NCBI GenBank assembly: GCA_031261005.1 | Contig: JAISKF010000013.1 | Coordinates: forward strand, 1-64,000 | Source: Enterobacteriaceae bacterium | Lineage (GTDB): Bacteria; Pseudomonadota; Gammaproteobacteria; Enterobacterales; Enterobacteriaceae | Direction: 5' to 3' | DNA: 64,000 nucleotides | Shown here: piece after piece, positions 323-63,906 of the stretch | How positions within the stretch are numbered: position 1 is the stretch's first letter | Layout of the letters: each line of letters begins with the position of its first letter | The notes under the pieces: model-generated | Told to the model about the DNA's origin: nothing | What the model saw: only the letters and a program-made list of their open reading frames with translations | The model's database searches: none | Translations under genes and position numbers: made by a program

Positions 323-754
323 TTATTTAAAAAAGTAAAATGTCACTTTCCCCTTACTATCTTTAGATATTTCCATTAGGATATGATCCTTTCTAACACA
401 TCGATTTTTTACGGTCATCTCATTGAAACAAAACAAATGGTCTGTACTTCCTCCGGGTAAAAACCAATCTCTGTCAGGAATTTCCTCTTCATAACCATGA
501 CCAATGTCAATTATTCTGACAAAATAAGAACCATTAGTGTCTGTTGTTGGGAAATTATATTTATTATTTAAGGAAGATTCATTTTCATTCCACCATTTTT
601 CTCTATTCGTTTTAAGAATAGGAAAATTCTTAACAATGAGTTCATTATCAAGATGCACATCAATAATTTCTGTGGGTAAACACAATCTAACTCCCATATA
701 AATTCCAGCAATAACTATTGCGATAAAAAACAACCATTTTATCTTAGCCTTCAT
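323..754 (-). CDS. DUF943 family protein, putative immunity protein
   Basis: This gene encodes 143 residues. It has a positively charged N-terminus, one hydrophobic segment (about residues 7-25) and a likely periplasmic remainder with LIVKNFPIL, REKWW and an IDIGHGYEEE segment, the pattern I associate with DUF943. Its ATG shares one base with the stop codon of the PAAR-DUF3289 gene upstream (TAATG), which implies translational coupling. By position and family it is the probable cognate immunity protein of that effector, held at the inner membrane and facing the periplasm; this is inference. Local AT content is higher than in the core genes to the right. A second, partial copy follows at the window edge. 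Confidence 0.75.
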   Translation of the reverse strand: MKAKIKWLFFIAIVIAGIYMGVRLCLPTEIIDVHLDNELIVKNFPILKTNREKWWNENESSLNNKYNFPTTDTNGSYFVRIIDIGHGYEEEIPDRDWFLPGGSTDHLFCFNEMTVKNRCVRKDHILMEISKDSKGKVTFYFFK

Positions 755-1983
755 TAGTAGGCTCCTTCAATAGTCACGCTTACATTTATATCTGTAATAA
801 ATGGTTGATAGTTATAGCCTTTCCAACGTTGTAGTACAAACCAGACTTTAAACAGGTCTAACTTACTATATAACCAGTGTTTTATATCCTCATCATCCAG
901 TCCAAAATGATCTTGTATATGATACGTTATCGTCGCAGTGAATTTATGATCCGCTATCATTAATGATTCTAATGTAATATGAGTTGCCCATGTATCATGA
1001 ACCGTAATCCCAAGTCCATTAGTTCGATCTTTTAAATTATCAAATCGAGGAAGAACACTTCCCTTTACGATCTCTGTTAACTGCTTTTTCTCCGCTTCTG
1101 GATAGAGGCTATATTGTTTATCAATTTTATCAGCAATTACTGCTTTTATTCTTTGGAGAGAGCTATCCCCTGATTTATCTTCAAGAATACGTTCTTTCAT
1201 TGCCTGATCAAGTAACGGATCACTAAACGTTGTTCCCGTATTCTCCTGCATATGCTGAATCATTTTACGCATCAGATCACTATATTTTCCATACAAAGCC
1301 GTAGGGGTAGCATCAATTCTGAACTGCTGGAATAATATTTCAGCGGTAACCGGCGATTTATATGGATTTACCCCGACATGAGGATCCAAAACCTCATCGG
1401 GATCAACGTATTTATCAGAGAATAATGTCTGATGAATCTTGACCTCATCAATACCATATTGTTTTCTTAACTGTTCCTCCGTCAAATCACCGTGTTTCAT
1501 GTCCGGTGCATTGTAATCGTCCATCTGATGCTGTGTTTCAAAAATACGATACGGAAGTTCGATTGCCTTTGGCGGTTGTTCTTTATTGGCAGCAGCCTGA
1601 TTTTTTTCATCAGTAAGACTATTTTTTTCTGCCTCTTTTGCCGGTTGTGCGGGTTCTTCTTTTAGCTGCGAACTTTGAGACATTCGCGTTGCCGCTGCTG
1701 GCGAATTAAAATAATAAGTCGCATTGAGTAATGACGGAATAAAAGATGCACGACATGGACATGTACTTCTACTGTGCAGTGTTCCTGCCATGAGTTGTCC
1801 ATGACTAATCTCGGTGGCAATACCCCCTGCGATAGTATAGACTTTCCCATCTTTTCCACACCTTACTTTGTCACCGGCTCTGGCTACGGCGGCATTGCCC
1901 ATTGAGTATTTGCTATCCCCCGATAACACCTCACCACCACATGTCGTTTTATCACCGACTCGTACATAATACCCAACGCCCAT
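754..1983 (-). CDS. PAAR-domain T6SS effector with C-terminal DUF3289 domain
   Basis: This gene encodes 409 residues. Residues 1 to about 95 form a PAAR-like domain (opening MGVGYYVRVGDKTTCGG, then short Gly-rich repeats), which sharpens the T6SS spike through VgrG. Residues about 100-150 are a linker rich in Ala, Glu, Gln and Lys. The rest fits DUF3289: MDDYNAPDMKHGDLTEEQLR near 150-175, DHFGLDD at about 358-364, and WFVLQRWKGY close to the end. DUF3289 is a predicted toxin domain whose activity I cannot state. The ATG is preceded by AAGGAAT at good spacing. The gene is coupled to the downstream DUF943 gene, and no other T6SS genes are visible here, so it looks like an orphan effector island beside kdsB. 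Confidence 0.8.
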   Translation of the reverse strand: MGVGYYVRVGDKTTCGGEVLSGDSKYSMGNAAVARAGDKVRCGKDGKVYTIAGGIATEISHGQLMAGTLHSRSTCPCRASFIPSLLNATYYFNSPAAATRMSQSSQLKEEPAQPAKEAEKNSLTDEKNQAAANKEQPPKAIELPYRIFETQHQMDDYNAPDMKHGDLTEEQLRKQYGIDEVKIHQTLFSDKYVDPDEVLDPHVGVNPYKSPVTAEILFQQFRIDATPTALYGKYSDLMRKMIQHMQENTGTTFSDPLLDQAMKERILEDKSGDSSLQRIKAVIADKIDKQYSLYPEAEKKQLTEIVKGSVLPRFDNLKDRTNGLGITVHDTWATHITLESLMIADHKFTATITYHIQDHFGLDDEDIKHWLYSKLDLFKVWFVLQRWKGYNYQPFITDINVSVTIEGAY

Positions 1984-4168: not shown

Positions 4169-5910
4169 TGGCTGAATTGCATACGGTGTAACTGCGCGTA
4201 TGCACCATTATTTTGAATCAATGCAGCGTGATTACCGCGTTCGACAATGCGACCATCTTCAATCACCAAAATTTCATCAGCTTTTTCAATAGTGGAGAGG
4301 CGGTGAGCAATCACCAGTGAAGTACGGTTTTTCTGTAGTTCATCTAATGCTGCCTGAATTGCACGTTCAGATTCAGTGTCTAACGCAGACGTCGCTTCAT
4401 CGAGAATTAAAATTGGGCTATCGCGTAACAATGCACGAGCAATAGCAATACGCTGACGCTGCCCGCCGGATAACAGCACGCCGTTCTCACCGATCATAGT
4501 GTCCAGCCCGTTATCCATCTTGTTGATGAAACCCATCGCATGAGCCATCGTTGCCGCTTTTTCAATATCTTCACGGGAATACTGCTCGGTTCGTGCATAA
4601 GCAATATTATTGGCGATGGTATCGTTAAACAGATGTACGCTTTGCGACACGACCGCAACCTGATCACGCAGTGACGCGAGGGTATATTCACGGATTTCAT
4701 GACCATCAATCAGAATCTCACCCTCTTGAATATCATAAAAACGGGTTAACAAATTAGCGATAGTCGATTTACCCGAACCAGAACGTCCAACCAAAGCGAC
4801 AGTTTTACCGGCTGGGATCTTTAAGCTAATGTTTTTCAGTGCTGGCTGATCTTTCGTCGGATAAGTGAATGTCACATTATGCAGTTCAACATCACCTTTT
4901 GCCCGTTCAACATTGAGTTTGCCGTTATCTTGCTCTGGTTCCATATCCAAAATAGTAAATAAGGTCTGACATGCTGCCATACCGCGCTGGAACTGTGAGT
5001 TAACATTAGTTAATGATTTCAATGGCTTCATCAATGCAACCATTGAAGAGAACACGACAGTTATCGTACCGGCAGTCAGTGTATCCATGATGCTTGGGAA
5101 GCTGGACGCAAACAGCACCAGCGCCAATGCAGTTGAAGCGATAAGCTGAACAATCGGATCAGAAATTGCTGAGGCAGCAACCATCTTCATGCCCTGCTGA
5201 CGCATGCGGTTACTGACTTTATTAAAGCGGGTAGTTTCCACGTCCTGACCGCCGAACAGTAGCACTTCTTTATGCCCTTTCAGCATTTGCTCTGCGCTGG
5301 CAGTCACCTGCCCCATCGTATTCTGCATATTTTTACTGATATTACGGAAACGTTTAGAGACAAAGCGGATAACAAAAGAAACAATCGGAGCCAGCACCAC
5401 CAAAATCATTGATAGCTGCCAACTGTTATAAAACATGATAGAAAACAGCGCTAATATGTATGCGCCCTCTCTAATTACCGTAATCAATGCACCGGAAGAG
5501 GAAGAGGCGACCTGTTCAGAATCATAGGTGATACGAGACAGCAATGTACCCGTTGACTGCTGATCAAAGAAAGAAACCGGCATATTCATCATGTGACCAA
5601 ACAGACGGCGGCGGATTGTCATCACTACTTTGCCGGAAACCCATGACAGGCAATAAGTAGACACATAGCTGGTTATACCGCGCATCACCATTAGCCCTAG
5701 AACAACTAATGGCATCCAAACTAATACATCACTGCCAGTTTTACCAAAGCCATCATCGAGTAATGGTTTCAGCAATGAGAGCATCATCGCATCAGTGCCA
5801 GCATTAAAAACCAGAGCGATTGCCGAAACAATCAAACCAAGACGAAATGGTTTAATTAATGGCCACAATCGGCGAAATGTTTCCCACGTAGAGAGATCTT
5901 TATCGTTCAA
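4165..5910 (-). CDS. msbA: Lipid A export ATP-binding/permease protein MsbA
   Basis: This gene encodes 581 residues, the standard length of this half-size ABC exporter. It flips core-lipid A across the inner membrane, driven by ATP. The N-terminal half has six hydrophobic segments. The C-terminal half has Walker A (GRSGSGKST), the ABC signature [16 protein letters not shown] and Walker [13 protein letters not shown]. The reading frame begins at a TTG codon ([15 protein letters not shown] follows, matching E. coli after its Met-His). There is no in-frame ATG between that codon and the preceding stop, so a non-ATG start is likely. The gene overlaps lpxK by four bases. Confidence 0.97.
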
Positions 5911-56880: not shown

Positions 56881-57135
56881 TCGTCTTTAGATTTTCTCTG
56901 CTGTATTGGTGCAATCAGAGATAATGAGTGTACTGTTCTGAACAGTGAAATTTCGGAACACTTATTTTGAGTTGTTTACAGATAAAATATATTTCACTCT
57001 CTCGTATTGCCGCCCTCTATTCTCTGTAAAAACTGAGCGTTAGGTCAATGTTAAGAAACCAGAATGGCTATCGTAATTCGTCCCCTTTTCACTGTTGAAA
57101 TTCAAAAAGCGAAACCGTCCTCTAAATCTGGTTGT

Positions 57136-57358
57136 CATCAAAATACTGTCCCTGAAGTCGCAGAGGTTGTTTTACTTTTATTTCGTCCAGTCGGTCTGCC
57201 CGACCAAAGGCGAAGTAGTGCGCGCTCCAGACGATTTCACCCTCAGCATCATATAACCGCAGCGGCATACCATTCGGGTCGTTCTGATAAAAATAGTAAC
57301 CGCTCTCTTCCGGAGGAGCCGGACTGCTGATGCCCTATTGTTTGCACTGTAATACTAA
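57136..57358 (-). pseudogene. Decayed rhs core fragment
   Basis: Read on the minus strand this encodes a segment matching the intact Rhs protein near its core end: APPEESGYYFYQNDPNGMPL, then ADRLDEIKVKQPLRLQGQYF. An in-frame TAG (57335-57337) replaces a glutamine codon after LQCKQ, and the frame stops again after FDDNQI. Similarity ends before the core's DPxGL motif, so no toxin tail remains. Base identity with the same part of the intact gene (58720-58940) is high. The fragment lies downstream of the present toxin-immunity pair, as displaced rhs tails typically do. The plus-strand frame across it is only a shadow. Confidence 0.85.
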
Positions 57359-57533: not shown

Positions 57534-58151
57534 TCATGCTGTTTGAATAAAAAAGAAACCTATATCATTATTATCTTCGATTTTTTTCTTCAAAAACATA
57601 TATCCTATTGAATCTGAAAGCCCCAAAATACCATTGTTTTTAGAAGATAAATCAGATGAATATAACTGACCAACAAACATATACTCTTTCATTAGCTTTT
57701 CATACCCAACTAACCCATTCGGAATATCATTAGATATAAAGGAAAAAGCAGGGAAATCGCTATCTTCTAAATTTCGTTGAGATAATGTAATTTTTTTTTC
57801 GCTTACCCTCACCCCACCTTCCTTATAACTATCTTTATTACCAATAGTTATTCTTGTATAACCTTTACATATATAATTAAACTCTACATCATCACCAGTA
57901 AAAACTATATCATCTATAAAATAGCGACTTTCATTGTAGGTAGAAAAAATAGATACAATATGATTTGGTGGTAAACCTAAAGAACTAATAAATTTATTTA
58001 GCACATTTGTTTCAATTGAGAATAATAAGGTAAGTTCTTCACCTAAAGGGTTTTTGGGCCATGCCCCCTCGATATAAGCTCCTCCCCCAAACTTAATGCT
58101 GCCTGTTTCATTATCCACATTAGTCGGTTTTAACTGATATACTTCTTTCAT
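57534..58151 (-). CDS. Putative Rhs immunity protein (DUF1963/YwqG-like)
   Basis: This is a 205-residue protein when started at MKEVYQLKPTNVDNETG, whose ATG overlaps the rhs stop (ATGA) and has AGGAG at good spacing; the longer frame to 58175 is less likely. There is no signal peptide or membrane helix, so it acts in the cytoplasm if it is the cognate immunity protein. The N-terminal SIKFGGGAYIEGAWPKN and LTLLFSIETN weakly recall the DUF1963 (YwqG) pattern of KFGG and WPK followed by a hydrophobic strand. It is clearly more AT-rich than the rhs core, typical of exchangeable modules. The assignment rests mainly on position. Confidence 0.7.
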   Translation of the reverse strand: MKEVYQLKPTNVDNETGSIKFGGGAYIEGAWPKNPLGEELTLLFSIETNVLNKFISSLGLPPNHIVSIFSTYNESRYFIDDIVFTGDDVEFNYICKGYTRITIGNKDSYKEGGVRVSEKKITLSQRNLEDSDFPAFSFISNDIPNGLVGYEKLMKEYMFVGQLYSSDLSSKNNGILGLSDSIGYMFLKKKIEDNNDIGFFFIQTA

Positions 58152-61100
58152 ACTTGTTCTTCTCCTTTCTCGCATCCCTTCAATTTATTATAGAAACTCT
58201 TAGCCGCTGTTCGAAGTGGATAAATCTTAGATTCGGGAACCCCAGCTCGTCTCATCGCTTCTGTTGTTATATCTAATTCATCATCAATTGTTGATGAAAA
58301 CTCATTGCGTCCTAGTCCTCTTTCTTCTCTAATTTTTCCTTCATGATAATGAACGCCACCAATACCTCTTGAATCTTTTTCTGGTCCACGAGTATGGTGA
58401 TCAAGATCTAATGCTATAGCAGGATTTCCAGATAAACGAGTATCATTTGCCAACCCTTCTTGCCTCAAATATTCATGTCTTATTAATTCATGTGATTGAA
58501 GACCATCGCCGACATGTTCTCCACCATTCTGACTTCCATAAGTGCCTACATCAAAAAGTGAAGCTAATCCTAAAGGATCTGCCCAACTGAATGTATTCGG
58601 CGCATACTGATAAGGATTAATCCCCCCAACCAACCCAATCGGATCCTGACAAACAAACACCCCCGTGCGCGGATCATAATACCGATGTCGGTTGTAGTGT
58701 AAACCACTCTCTTCATCAAAATATTGTCCCTGAAGTCGCAGCGGTTGTTTTACTTTTATTTCATCTAATCGGTCTGCCCGACCAAATGCGGTGTAGTGCG
58801 CGCTCCAGGCGATTTCGCCTTGTGCGTCATATAACCGCAGCGGCATACCATTCGGGTCGTTCTGATAAAAATAGTAACCGCTCTCTTCCGGCGGTGCCAG
58901 ACTGCCAATGCCCTGCTGTTTGCACTGTAGCACCAGTGGTTCAAAGGTGTTCAGATAATAGACAAAGAAGCGGCTGTCCAGTTTGGCATTCGTCCCTGTT
59001 GCCAGCGGTGAGAAGCTGACTTCTGCCGTCAGGGCATCGCCGTCCCAGATAAAATAGGTAATCTTCTCTACCTGATCGCGCCGGTTAATGCAGGTTTTGC
59101 GGATCCGCCGCCTTAACGCATCATAGTGATACTGATAACGTTCGCCCCGCTCTCCGGTACGATAAAATCCGCTCAGGCACTCATTTTCGTCCCATTCCAG
59201 ACGATCGCTTCGTTCACCGTCTTCGCGTACAATCAACTGCCCCGCCTGATTCAGGCGATAGTGCATGCCGTCGTTAAACGTCAGTTCTCGCTGACCTTCC
59301 GGATCCTCTGTTTCGACAAACCGATCGCCGTTCGCGTTATACACATAATCGTGGATCTCTCCCATCGGATTACTGTGACGGGTTATCTGCCCCAGTACGT
59401 CGTAGAAGTAACGGTCGGTGCCTCCGCGGCTGTCACTACGCATCACCAGATTACCCGATACATCATAGTGATAATCAATGGTATCGCTGTGAATGTTGCC
59501 GCTGCGATGCAAACTCTGGCGTTTCAGTTGCCCTGTTTTGGTGTATTCAAAGGTCGAAGTTACGGCTTCGCTCTGTTTCTGGCGGGTCAGGCGACCAATT
59601 TCATCAAAATCAAATTCGACTGGCGCATGGTCATCCACCTGCTGGCGGATAAGTTGCCCCAGTTCGTTATATTCAAAGCGCAGCGCTTGTTTAAACGCCG
59701 TTTCTTCTGTCTGGATCTGATGCTGCAACTGATGATGCTGTTCCGTTAACTGACCGGACAGGTTATAGCGGTATTCCAGACGGGCAGTCACCTCTTGCTG
59801 TTGCTGACTTTCCAGTATTAATGCGCCAACCTGATTATATTTTCGCGTCACTTCACAATGCAGGTTCTTCGCCAGCGTGAGCTGACCCCGTTTGTTATAG
59901 GCGTAGGTTTCTGCTTTTTCCGGCTGTCCGTGCGGCGTTTTACTGACAATACGCCCCATTCGGTCACAGGTCACTGCCAGTAACTGACCTAACGGGTTAA
60001 GGCTTTGGGTTAAATAACCCGCTTCATCATAATGATAGGTCCGCGCTTTTCCCCAATAATCGCGCTCTTCAATCAGGCGTCCGACCGCATCGCGTTTTAA
60101 CTGCCAGTGTTCACCGCGCTGATTGGTCACGCCGGTCAGTTGTTCTTCGGTATTGTAGTGATATTGCAGGGTATTACCGTCCGGCAGCGTCTGCTGTGAC
60201 AGCCGTCCCTGACCAAAATAGGCAAATTTAGTCACTTTTTTACCGCGATCGCGGTATTCAATCAGGTTATCTTCATGATCGTAACGGCAACTGATAAACT
60301 CGCCGTCTTCTAACTGGCATGAGATCAACCGCCCTTTTTTATCATACTGATAGCGGGTTTCATCGCCGTTAGCCAACCGGCGTGTTTGCAAATGACCCAA
60401 ACGGTCAAACTGAAAATCCGTGGCTCGTCCGGCAATATCCCGAAGCTGGCGAATAAAGCCTAATTCATCATACGTCAGTGCGGTCTGTTGCTGCCCGCTA
60501 TGGACTTCAACCAGTTGTCCCAGTACATCGTAGCGATACCGGCTTTCCTGACCCAGCGGGGTTTTCTGGCTAATCAGGTTGCCTTTGTCATTCCATTGCT
60601 GCTGCCAGCGCTGGTTTTCAGCATCAACAATTTCAGTCGGTTTATTTCGCTCATCGTAGCGAATACGGATACCGCTTCCGTCAGGGTAACGGCGGCTGAC
60701 GATATTTGCCCGCGGGTCATATTCCCATTCGGTTTTGTTACCGCACGGATCAATTTCCGATATTCCCCGTTGTTGTCCATCGTACTGATAGGATTTAACC
60801 CCGCCTAACGGGTCGATGCGAACTAAAGGAAGTTGTCGTTCGTCATATTGCAGAATGGTGGTATGACCGAGCGAGTCGGTAATTAACGTCTCCTGACGCT
60901 CAGGGTGATAGACAAACGTGTAATCAAACAGTCCGTGATCACCCCAGGCATGATGCACCCGCTGAACCTGATCTTCATGCAGGGTATAGGCATAGTAAAA
61001 CGATAAACCGTTGCGGTCGGTATGGCGCACCATCTGGTGATTATCAATATATTCAAAATCATATGGCTGTTGATGGCTATCCAGAACGGATACCATATCG

Positions 61101-62584
61101 CCATGATGATCCTGCCGGTATCCCGCCAGCAGTACGCCGGTATTATCGGCGGCACTGTCATATAGCACCAGATCGGTTAAATACCGCCCGTCATGATGGC
61201 AGGCAATCCGGCGTCCGGTATCGCCCTCAAGACAATATTCAACCACCTGCTGGAGATGCTGCTGTGTGTTCCGTTCAAAACGCCAGCCGTTACCGTTCAG
61301 GTCTTCCATTCGGCTAAACCAGAGGGGGAGCAGTTCACCGTCTTCGAGCTGTTCTGCCCGATGCTGCCAGTCAACCGGTAGTGGAAAATGGTACTCGATA
61401 CCCTCTCGGGTTCTTAAAATCAGTTCATTATTCAAACGGTAGAGGGCATGCCCTTGCTGCCAGTCCAGACGGTGATGTTCCCAGCCCTCATAGACAGGAA
61501 GCATTTCAAACGCGGTTTTATGATCGGGAAACTGCGCGATTGCCCCTAAAATGCCCTCTGTGACCACCAGAGAGAGATGAATATCCGCCGGTGTTAACCA
61601 GATATGGCCAATTGCCCCGTCATAAGCCTGATGCCCGGAGTAATAGCGCTCCCAACTCAGTGGAAAGCGACCATCTACGGCAAAATCATGTTGCTGAACA
61701 ATAACTTCACCGGTAATTGAATGCACGGGTTCCGCGTCAAAAACGGTACATTTAATAAAACCTGACGGAAATTTTTTAAACAGTGCTTTAGCCAGTTTGG
61801 AACCGCGAAATGCCTTAAACAGTGCCAGCGCTATCGCCAGAAAATTGAGTGTCGGCGGTCCGCCGACCAGAACCGGACGACCAACCGGAATGGGGAGCGT
61901 GACTGCCGTCGGTAATGAAAATTCGGTTCGTTCCGTATGAGCGCCATTCTTCTTGCCCGGCGACATACCCACAACCCAGCAGCTTAACGATGGCAGTGCC
62001 AGATAGGAGAAAGGATCACCGTTAACAATCACGGTTTTACTTCCCATGAACGCTTCCGCATCACAGGACGGGAGATCTTGTACGTAACTGATACCCAGCG
62101 GGAAATGTAACCCCGGAATATGACGTGAATTCGTTCCTACCGTAGCACGCATCAGGTTATTGACCAGTACCGGTCGGTCAGAACCGCCGCCCTGCCCGAC
62201 ACCGGCACCTAACGCCTCTTTTTCTGAGTTCACCGCGCCCAGCGCGGATTTAACCATCGGGTTGTCCTGTACGGCTTCACTGTTCCATATTTTGCCGCCA
62301 ACCTGCCCTGCTGCGGCTTTAAAATCCTTGTTTTTGATGGCATTAGCCAGCGCCAGCGCTTCCTGCGCCAGTCCTGCCTTTTCCATGATGTCTGCAGGCA
62401 CATTCTCCTGAACGAAATTCATCACCAGTGAACCTACAAAGGCTTTAGCCCCGTTGACCAGTTCACGGAAATCCAGAACAACACCCACATGCGGGTGAGG
62501 AATGGGCACTGTTGCAGGTACGCTCACCGTATGAACATCCACCCCGACAACAGGGGATAAGTGCGTTGATGCCAGTACACTCAT
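58148..62584 (-). CDS. Rhs-family polymorphic toxin with PAAR-like N-terminus
   Basis: This gene encodes 1478 residues. Residues 1-270 include a PAAR-like region (STHLSPVVGVDVHTVSVPA and SKTVIVNGDPFSYLALPSLS), the T6SS spike tip. From about 290 to 1340 there are many YD repeats (such as YRYDVLGQLVEV) forming the Rhs cocoon. The core ends with PNTFSWADPLGL. The last 138 residues are the variable toxin, with HELIRHEYL, DLDHHTRGPEKDSRG and GGVHYHE; these histidines would fit a metal-dependent nuclease, but I cannot name the family. The tail is AT-rich compared with the core. The gene is coupled by ATGA overlaps to both neighbours. Confidence 0.92.
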   Translation of the reverse strand: MSVLASTHLSPVVGVDVHTVSVPATVPIPHPHVGVVLDFRELVNGAKAFVGSLVMNFVQENVPADIMEKAGLAQEALALANAIKNKDFKAAAGQVGGKIWNSEAVQDNPMVKSALGAVNSEKEALGAGVGQGGGSDRPVLVNNLMRATVGTNSRHIPGLHFPLGISYVQDLPSCDAEAFMGSKTVIVNGDPFSYLALPSLSCWVVGMSPGKKNGAHTERTEFSLPTAVTLPIPVGRPVLVGGPPTLNFLAIALALFKAFRGSKLAKALFKKFPSGFIKCTVFDAEPVHSITGEVIVQQHDFAVDGRFPLSWERYYSGHQAYDGAIGHIWLTPADIHLSLVVTEGILGAIAQFPDHKTAFEMLPVYEGWEHHRLDWQQGHALYRLNNELILRTREGIEYHFPLPVDWQHRAEQLEDGELLPLWFSRMEDLNGNGWRFERNTQQHLQQVVEYCLEGDTGRRIACHHDGRYLTDLVLYDSAADNTGVLLAGYRQDHHGDMVSVLDSHQQPYDFEYIDNHQMVRHTDRNGLSFYYAYTLHEDQVQRVHHAWGDHGLFDYTFVYHPERQETLITDSLGHTTILQYDERQLPLVRIDPLGGVKSYQYDGQQRGISEIDPCGNKTEWEYDPRANIVSRRYPDGSGIRIRYDERNKPTEIVDAENQRWQQQWNDKGNLISQKTPLGQESRYRYDVLGQLVEVHSGQQQTALTYDELGFIRQLRDIAGRATDFQFDRLGHLQTRRLANGDETRYQYDKKGRLISCQLEDGEFISCRYDHEDNLIEYRDRGKKVTKFAYFGQGRLSQQTLPDGNTLQYHYNTEEQLTGVTNQRGEHWQLKRDAVGRLIEERDYWGKARTYHYDEAGYLTQSLNPLGQLLAVTCDRMGRIVSKTPHGQPEKAETYAYNKRGQLTLAKNLHCEVTRKYNQVGALILESQQQQEVTARLEYRYNLSGQLTEQHHQLQHQIQTEETAFKQALRFEYNELGQLIRQQVDDHAPVEFDFDEIGRLTRQKQSEAVTSTFEYTKTGQLKRQSLHRSGNIHSDTIDYHYDVSGNLVMRSDSRGGTDRYFYDVLGQITRHSNPMGEIHDYVYNANGDRFVETEDPEGQRELTFNDGMHYRLNQAGQLIVREDGERSDRLEWDENECLSGFYRTGERGERYQYHYDALRRRIRKTCINRRDQVEKITYFIWDGDALTAEVSFSPLATGTNAKLDSRFFVYYLNTFEPLVLQCKQQGIGSLAPPEESGYYFYQNDPNGMPLRLYDAQGEIAWSAHYTAFGRADRLDEIKVKQPLRLQGQYFDEESGLHYNRHRYYDPRTGVFVCQDPIGLVGGINPYQYAPNTFSWADPLGLASLFDVGTYGSQNGGEHVGDGLQSHELIRHEYLRQEGLANDTRLSGNPAIALDLDHHTRGPEKDSRGIGGVHYHEGKIREERGLGRNEFSSTIDDELDITTEAMRRAGVPESKIYPLRTAAKSFYNKLKGCEKGEEQV

Positions 62585-63906
62585 ACTCGCTTCTCCTCCT
62601 GAGATGATGTCAGCGGATCAACGCGGACAAACTGCTCCCAGTCGTCCCCATACAATGCAGCGAACTTCTCGTGCATTTCGCCGTAGCGCCAGTCGGTCAG
62701 TCCAATTCGTTTATAAAGCCAGTGGGTTAACATCGGCAGTGAACTCTGTTTACGCAGCTCTGGCTCCATATTGAGTCCGGCATCAACCCCGTCAAAGGCG
62801 GCACTGAGTGCATTGGCGGGGCTTTTAGCCTTATCCCAGCATTCCGCGCGCATTCTGTCGGCTTCCACCGTCAAAATATAATCGGTATCCGCTAATGAGA
62901 ATTCAGGTATCCGATCGTAATAACGGGCTGCCATGTCATACTCTTTATTCATGTAATACACGCTGCAAATGCCGAAAAGGGCATTAACAATTAGTTTATT
63001 ACCAGCAGGGTGTCCCTCTTCTTTTGCCTGCTCCGCCGATGCCAGTGCGTCACCATAAGCCTGTAAAGAGCGCGGTTTATCCTGCCATTTCAAATACACT
63101 GCGCCGCCTATCAGATGAACCACCACGCTCTGATCAAACCATCGGGCATTATTACTGATGGCTAGTGCCGCTTTGGACAGATTTTCCAACCGCTGAGGAT
63201 CGTTATTTTTTAATGTCTCCGTCAGCTCCACAAAAAGACGGCGGAATTTTCCGCTATCCCCGCGTTCATTCGATTCGGCAATCATTTCTCTGGGGACGTT
63301 TTCACAATGGTACTGACCTTTTACTTGATAAACGCGCTGAGGGAAGTTGTCAGATAATTGAGTAAAGAGGTCTGTTTCCTGGGTGTACACCACAAAACGA
63401 ATACGTTCAGATGCCCAGTCACCTGACAGCGTTTCGGTTAATAGCTCATCTAACCAGGATTCTGTCTTGCTGAGGCTGTTCAAATTACCCGGAGAAAACA
63501 CCCATAAAAAACCGGGGAAAATATCAGGATGGTGCTGCATAAGGCTATCGGCTATCTGCAACAAATATTGTGTTTCTGTCGTCCCGCTTTCTTGTTCTGG
63601 TGCTAGCCAGTCAGCGGTGATCCCCTGCGCCAAAGAGCCATCACGCCGCTGGTCATAAAAATTAATAATATTCTGTACTATCGCAGCGGCATACTTATCG
63701 CCGGAGATAAAATCATCAGTAAACTGCATGGTGCAGCACCCATTTTCTTTCTGAACTTGAAAATAGGTGTTAAGCAAATAGAGATCGTCCTCATTCGCCT
63801 GCCAGTAGAGCAACTTTGCCTGTGGTTGCTCCGCAAATGCCAAAGCATCTTCATGAGCCAGCATAAAGCGACGTTCCACCGGATTTGAAGGCTGCCAATT
63901 ATCCAT
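62581..63906 (-). CDS. Unknown protein encoded upstream of rhs, possible T6SS cargo factor
   Basis: This gene encodes 441 residues, cytoplasmic by composition. The N-terminal half (about 1-200) has no motif I recognise. The C-terminal part (about 225-390) is helical with TPR-like periodicity (for example YLKWQDKPRSLQAYGDALAS and YYMNKEYDMAARYYDRIP). Its stop overlaps the rhs start (ATGA) and AAGGGAT precedes its own ATG, so it is part of the effector operon. Many PAAR-Rhs effectors need a small EagR-type chaperone, and none is present. This larger protein may fill a loading role, which is inference from position only. Confidence 0.75.
   Translation of the reverse strand: MDNWQPSNPVERRFMLAHEDALAFAEQPQAKLLYWQANEDDLYLLNTYFQVQKENGCCTMQFTDDFISGDKYAAAIVQNIINFYDQRRDGSLAQGITADWLAPEQESGTTETQYLLQIADSLMQHHPDIFPGFLWVFSPGNLNSLSKTESWLDELLTETLSGDWASERIRFVVYTQETDLFTQLSDNFPQRVYQVKGQYHCENVPREMIAESNERGDSGKFRRLFVELTETLKNNDPQRLENLSKAALAISNNARWFDQSVVVHLIGGAVYLKWQDKPRSLQAYGDALASAEQAKEEGHPAGNKLIVNALFGICSVYYMNKEYDMAARYYDRIPEFSLADTDYILTVEADRMRAECWDKAKSPANALSAAFDGVDAGLNMEPELRKQSSLPMLTHWLYKRIGLTDWRYGEMHEKFAALYGDDWEQFVRVDPLTSSQEEKRV

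Follow-up and report, generated by a model that had tools for sequence, protein, structure and literature searches.

The 138-residue tail of an Rhs protein and the 205-residue protein encoded beside it very probably constitute a toxin-immunity pair. Both are encoded in a stretch of 64,000 nucleotides from an Enterobacteriaceae genome (GenBank assembly GCA_031261005.1, contig JAISKF010000013.1, positions 1–64,000; hereafter, the window). The arrangement is a known kind of weapon (Rhs toxin with immunity gene), and the tail represents a family that is unnamed in the libraries searched. We propose that the tail would act as the toxic C-terminal domain of an Rhs effector delivered by type VI secretion, with its neighbor as the immunity protein.

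Organization of the Rhs locus

Scans of the Rhs protein against Pfam and NCBIfam placed Rhs/YD repeats and the Rhs-associated core ahead of the tail and gave no match to a PAAR domain (Table 1). The tail begins immediately past the DPXG(18)DPXG signature of the core, which is used as a marker for where Rhs toxin domains start (PMC5727410). All three motifs that the initial annotation had pointed out (HELIRHEYL, DLDHHTRG, and GGVHYHE) are indeed present in the 1478-aa reading frame, in which DLDHHTRG corresponds to tail residues 53–60. The partner gene starts at an ATG at position 58151 that overlaps the Rhs stop codon (TGA) as ATGA, with AAGGAG upstream of the start. An alternative 213-aa reading from position 58175 has a poorer start context and is less likely.

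Table 1 Features of the Rhs locus, in coordinates of the window
Feature	Coordinates	Strand	Basis
1478-aa Rhs effector gene; its product comprises DUF6531, RHS/YD repeats, an Rhs-associated core ending at residue 1340, and the tail	58148..62584	-	ORF, Pfam and NCBIfam scans
DPIG-(18 residues)-DPLG motif closing the Rhs core	58568..58645	-	read in sequence
Predicted toxin tail, 138 residues and stop, starting at residue 1341	58148..58564	-	ORF, alignment
HELIRHEYL, tail residues 25–33; H25, E26, R29, H30 conserved	58466..58492	-	alignment
NPAIALDLDHHTRG; N47, P48, D53, H57 invariant	58385..58426	-	alignment
GGVHYHE, tail residues 69–75; H72, H74, E75 invariant	58340..58360	-	alignment
Gene for the 205-aa DUF1963-like partner (likely immunity protein)	57534..58151	-	ORF, profile, linkage
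Rhs-core remnant, 217 bp, 90.3% identical to 58713–58929, same orientation	57135..57351	-	sequence comparison
441-aa protein between the Rhs and VgrG-like genes; only weak TPR matches	62581..63906	-	ORF, Pfam scan

The G+C content drops from 50.9% in the core to 39.1% in the tail and 30.6% in the partner gene, and an Rhs-core remnant is located behind the partner gene, as would be expected if a new tail and partner had displaced an older pair. Based on the DPXG(18)DPXG junction, this compositional drop, and the remnant, the tail and partner appear to be an exchanged toxin/immunity cassette. Each of the two has one match in the genome.

Distribution of the tail and identity of its partner

Relatives of the tail share 43–70% identity and were found in Gamma- and Betaproteobacteria and on one Bacteroidota plasmid (Tenacibaculum finnmarkense). 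Snodgrassella alvi App4-8 and Gilliamella sp. N-G2 carry almost identical modules with 70% identity to the tail, and an IMG/VR contig (L011) shows 68%. Further relatives occur in Proteus mirabilis H63, Variovorax paradoxus, Pseudoduganella ginsengisoli, and four genomes of the Pseudoduganella family (L013–L016). Tail identity at this level in other genera suggests that the motifs are conserved beyond chance. The family is nonetheless sparse: with the query's own genome or the genome at the center of each set included, the tail was matched in 2 of 99 relatives (the second a fragment), 1 of 369 members of the class, 3 of 398 members of the phylum (one fragment, one chance match), 6 of 392 members of the Pseudoduganella family (one ambiguous), and, at E ≤0.1, 4 of 295 members of the Gilliamella order (one fragment, two chance matches). 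No match to the tail was found in E. coli genomes (DNA query) or in phages.

At all loci with an uninterrupted tail (12/12, window included), the partner lies directly downstream of it; this set contains one tail without its first third (L015) and the nearly identical Snodgrassella and Gilliamella modules, and it leaves out the Moraxella pieces (split by transposase genes) and the second Proteus record. A partner profile detected exactly one copy, next to the tail, in each of the eight genomes or records searched; the majority of these had themselves contributed rows to the profile. The coupled neighbor, suggested initially as a possible immunity partner, is thus likely to be one in view of this strict linkage. 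Five additional matches (L004, L012, L018, L021, and L042) repeat loci already counted, and two others (L009 and L022), which hold the tail end with a truncated partner, are apparently one genome reached twice. A 39-residue match (L017; E 8.6e-4) was kept outside the locus count. Judging from their ORFs, L010, L019 (resolvase), and L024 (peptidase-like) are chance matches, and L023 (E 0.03), for which no corresponding reading frame was found, was excluded.

Several of these records hold structures of their own. On Moraxella osloensis plasmid p1 (L008), the tail matches lie in three pieces with transposase genes between them (IS66-type among them), and a partner-like gene is found at 5108–5587. 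A Roseateles sp. XES5 plasmid carries a partner-like gene (L025:467–1063); the 1,100 bases inspected around this gene contain no tail, and it may be an orphan immunity gene. On the Tenacibaculum finnmarkense plasmid (L007), several kinds of tail (EHHH, GIY-YIG, window-type, and AHH-like) are attached to short pieces of Rhs core, in most cases with a small gene behind them, and this array reads as a plasmid-borne store of toxin cassettes. Two PLSDB records of about 4.08 Mb labelled as Proteus mirabilis plasmids (L005, NZ_OL790811.1; NZ_OL790812.1) look like chromosomes, judging by that size.

The partner resembles DUF1963 proteins: six of seven partner sequences match the Pfam profile at E ≤1 (best 3.8e-8), and the Tenacibaculum copy carries a DUF1963 annotation. 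The window copy, with 13.6 bits, stays below the profile cut-off of 23. DUF1963 (YwqG) is part of the TYPP superfamily, which is characterized by a GGxP motif and a highly conserved Q (PMC4275035). The GG is invariant in all seven partner rows, but the P is not kept (no P two residues on); a Q occupies the same column in the six full-length rows, its identity with the TYPP residue being assumed. Because GG and Q are kept and the P is not, we call the partner DUF1963-like only, apparently a divergent protein that is not filed as a member of the family. In 2014, a chaperone-like function was proposed for DUF1963 proteins (PMC4275035), and passages of that article on the superfamily do not present them as immunity proteins. 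The eukaryotic branch of the superfamily (TSR4/PDCD2) serves ribosome biogenesis. In the available text of the large polymorphic-toxin survey (PMC3482391), the term DUF1963 occurs zero times and YwqG is also absent. Immunity is a testable role for some DUF1963-like proteins.

Conserved core and candidate activities of the tail

Eleven aligned rows share an invariant set of residues (G37, A39, R43, N47, P48, I50, L52, D53, H57, H72, H74, E75, F89, R105, and G108), and H25, E26, R29, and H30 are present in each of the 10 rows that extend this far, giving the pattern HE..RH, NP.I.LD...H, H.HE. Because the most divergent row (L016) has Thr at H56, the core comprises H57 and H.HE, not an HH pair; the loop between H57 and H72 is missing in the same row. 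In all 36 pairs of nine tails, pN is lower than pS (pS near saturation), suggesting that the tail is under purifying selection. The partner has a higher dN than the toxin in 21 of 21 shared pairs, with synonymous sites near saturation.

Searches with the tail or its relatives against Pfam, NCBIfam, PADLOC, and PDB sequences returned nothing beyond weak, mutually inconsistent matches, in line with the initial annotation, which could not match the tail to a named toxin family with confidence. The histidines, combined with E26, D53, and E75, point to a possible metal site. We therefore regard metal-dependent nuclease activity, held with moderate confidence, as the most likely function; the tail would cut nucleic acids at a site formed by H25/E26/H30, N47...D53...H57, and H72-x-H74-E75. 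The initial annotation had read the motifs as a pattern suited to such an enzyme, and this holds insofar as the histidines form the conserved core; searches by profile, by sequence, and by fold matched the tail to no nuclease.

A narrower form of this reading, whose probability is contained in that of the metal-dependent nuclease, is that the tail is specifically an HNH/EndoVII (His-Me finger) enzyme like the AHH, SHH, and GHH clades. This is possible but rather doubtful. A-H25-E26 would be the general-base motif, N47 the structural Asn, and H57/H72 the metal ligands; HE, N47, H57, and H72 are conserved in the tail, and these roles for them are putative. The spacing of the tail motifs was compared with what we take to be the spacing in these clades. 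Conserved histidines and an asparagine are found in both, and the order HE - N - (x9) - H - H broadly resembles the motif lists of the AHH, SHH, GHH, and EHHH clades (PMC3482391). However, the tail has no Pfam match, and a three-sequence AHH profile scored 11.3 against it, less than the best of 30 column shuffles, which reached 23.1. A search for the AHH family over 60 genomes was silent everywhere, controls included, and is hence uninformative.

One similarity in favor of the HNH/EndoVII reading involves unnamed toxins with a GDGL..HHMP pattern (Streptomyces HINT, Bacillus LXG, and IMG/VR contigs), a group found by a motif search. Its members have no Pfam family (no convincing match in a Pfam search) and are presumed HNH enzymes. 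Comparison of whole profiles gave P 2.8e-5 and a score of 35.1, above all 200 column shuffles (maximum 22.5) and the reversed profile (11.9), whereas six unrelated Rhs tails scored 12.1–21.2; against the two Bacillus members alone, the link falls to P 0.028. With both profiles divided at the histidine, the entire signal resided in residues 4–25 (P 5.9e-8; 0/100 shuffles as good), within an entry segment of the form G-T-Y-G-S-L ... V-G-D-G-L-x-x-H, and nothing was left after H25 (29/100 shuffles as good). The similarity is thus confined to residues 4–25 and gives no sign of a shared catalytic domain, which counts against the HNH/EndoVII reading; a shared entry segment or junction is the likely explanation. 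GDGL..HHMP tails are common to HINT-type Streptomyces and LXG-type Bacillus toxins (L032, L034–L036, and L038–L041, with L040 and L041 near-copies of L039; mutual profile P 5.4e-12), and the pattern was not found in 145 genomes. For the Bacillus members, YokI of phage SPbeta was considered but dropped after a search of the phage collection with their tail returned nothing.

The initial annotation had also named structure prediction and a fold search for HNH/EndoVII or RNase folds as a check, and these yielded two low-confidence models and no fold match above noise. AlphaFold with four alignment rows gave a mean pLDDT of 56 and with seven rows (three of them HHMP toxins) a mean of 64; both models are all-helical, with H25–L33 inside a helix and no beta-hairpin, and would speak weakly against HNH. 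Because confidence is low to middling, the site is not checkable in three dimensions. The best VIA matches are unrelated helical proteins and were set aside as noise: the first model hit a designed homopentamer with bound zinc (Z 4.1, rmsd 3.6, 71 aligned) and the second a ribonucleotide reductase (Z 5.6, rmsd 5.3, 101 aligned). The best Foldseek hits (E 1.3 in PDB, 0.31 in BFVD) were likewise taken as noise.

Three readings outside the metal-dependent nucleases were weighed. A toxin with the same delivery and immunity but another target (e.g., a nucleotide, NAD, or a protein) would accord with a tail that has no assigned fold or family, and other Rhs tails are NADases or ADP-ribosyltransferases; this is unlikely, given that positive evidence is absent and the His/Glu/Asp-rich core has no matches to such families. 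Still less probable is a metal-independent RNase, acting for example on tRNA, with two histidines as acid and base. Several tail histidines are invariant and several toxin families have two catalytic histidines and no metal (PMC3482391), but conservation of E26, D53, and E75 alongside the histidines would be more in keeping with metal ligation. That the tail is decayed or silent in the window genome is very improbable: Rhs cassettes often persist as orphans and the locus adjoins a core remnant, yet the 1478-aa frame is open with all conserved residues kept, the partner is intact with a good ribosome-binding site, and secretion genes are adjacent. Within the preferred metal-dependent nuclease reading, a bolder version would have the tail found a new family of helical enzymes whose site consists of His, Glu, and Asp; exchange of cassettes would have carried it through Proteobacteria and Bacteroidota, and an immunity protein derived from DUF1963/TYPP would neutralize it. 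We consider this scenario speculative and improbable as a whole.

Delivery and comparison with known Rhs systems

Genes for VgrG-like and Hcp-like proteins and a series of T6SS-type ORFs adjoin the Rhs locus (L029, C54:62500–82400, past the window end). By sequence reading, this stretch encodes Hcp, TssB, C, E, F, G, J, K, L, FHA, and ClpV types, including a second TssF-like ORF; neither TssA nor TssM was seen in it. TssC (C54:69746–71167) is the sole T6SS gene confirmed by profile, and the genome has three TssC genes. The 441-aa ORF, which belongs to no family, overlaps the Rhs start by four bases and may encode an uncharacterized Rhs/VgrG adaptor. We infer type VI delivery of the Rhs protein from this gene context. 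The Rhs shell would carry the tail and load onto the neighboring VgrG spike, and the effector would be injected into a competing bacterium, where the tail, released after DPXG(18)DPXG, would be active in the cytoplasm; kin would be protected by the DUF1963-like protein binding the tail.

The closest known counterparts are the T6SS-associated Rhs cassettes of bee-gut Snodgrassella and Gilliamella (PMC5727410), which share the Rhs core, the DPXG(18)DPXG junction, an exchangeable tail, an immunity gene directly downstream, and orphan core pieces. Not only do S. alvi App4-8 and Gilliamella sp. N-G2 hold relatives of the window tail, but App4-8 is a strain used in that study, whose passages on these cassettes neither name nor test this tail. 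Among the matches listed in the open-licence literature, supplementary tables apart, no description of the tail or of DUF1963 immunity proteins was recognized. Rhs tails without a family are common, and the finding is therefore useful rather than astonishing; of the toxins in S. alvi wkB2, five were similar to known domains and 11 were not (PMC5727410). A recognizable tail family with a constant partner allows unannotated Rhs tails and orphan partners to be named together. Elsewhere in the window, the start of a 409-aa ORF (754–1983, reverse strand) reads by eye like a PAAR-repeat protein and could be a second T6SS effector.
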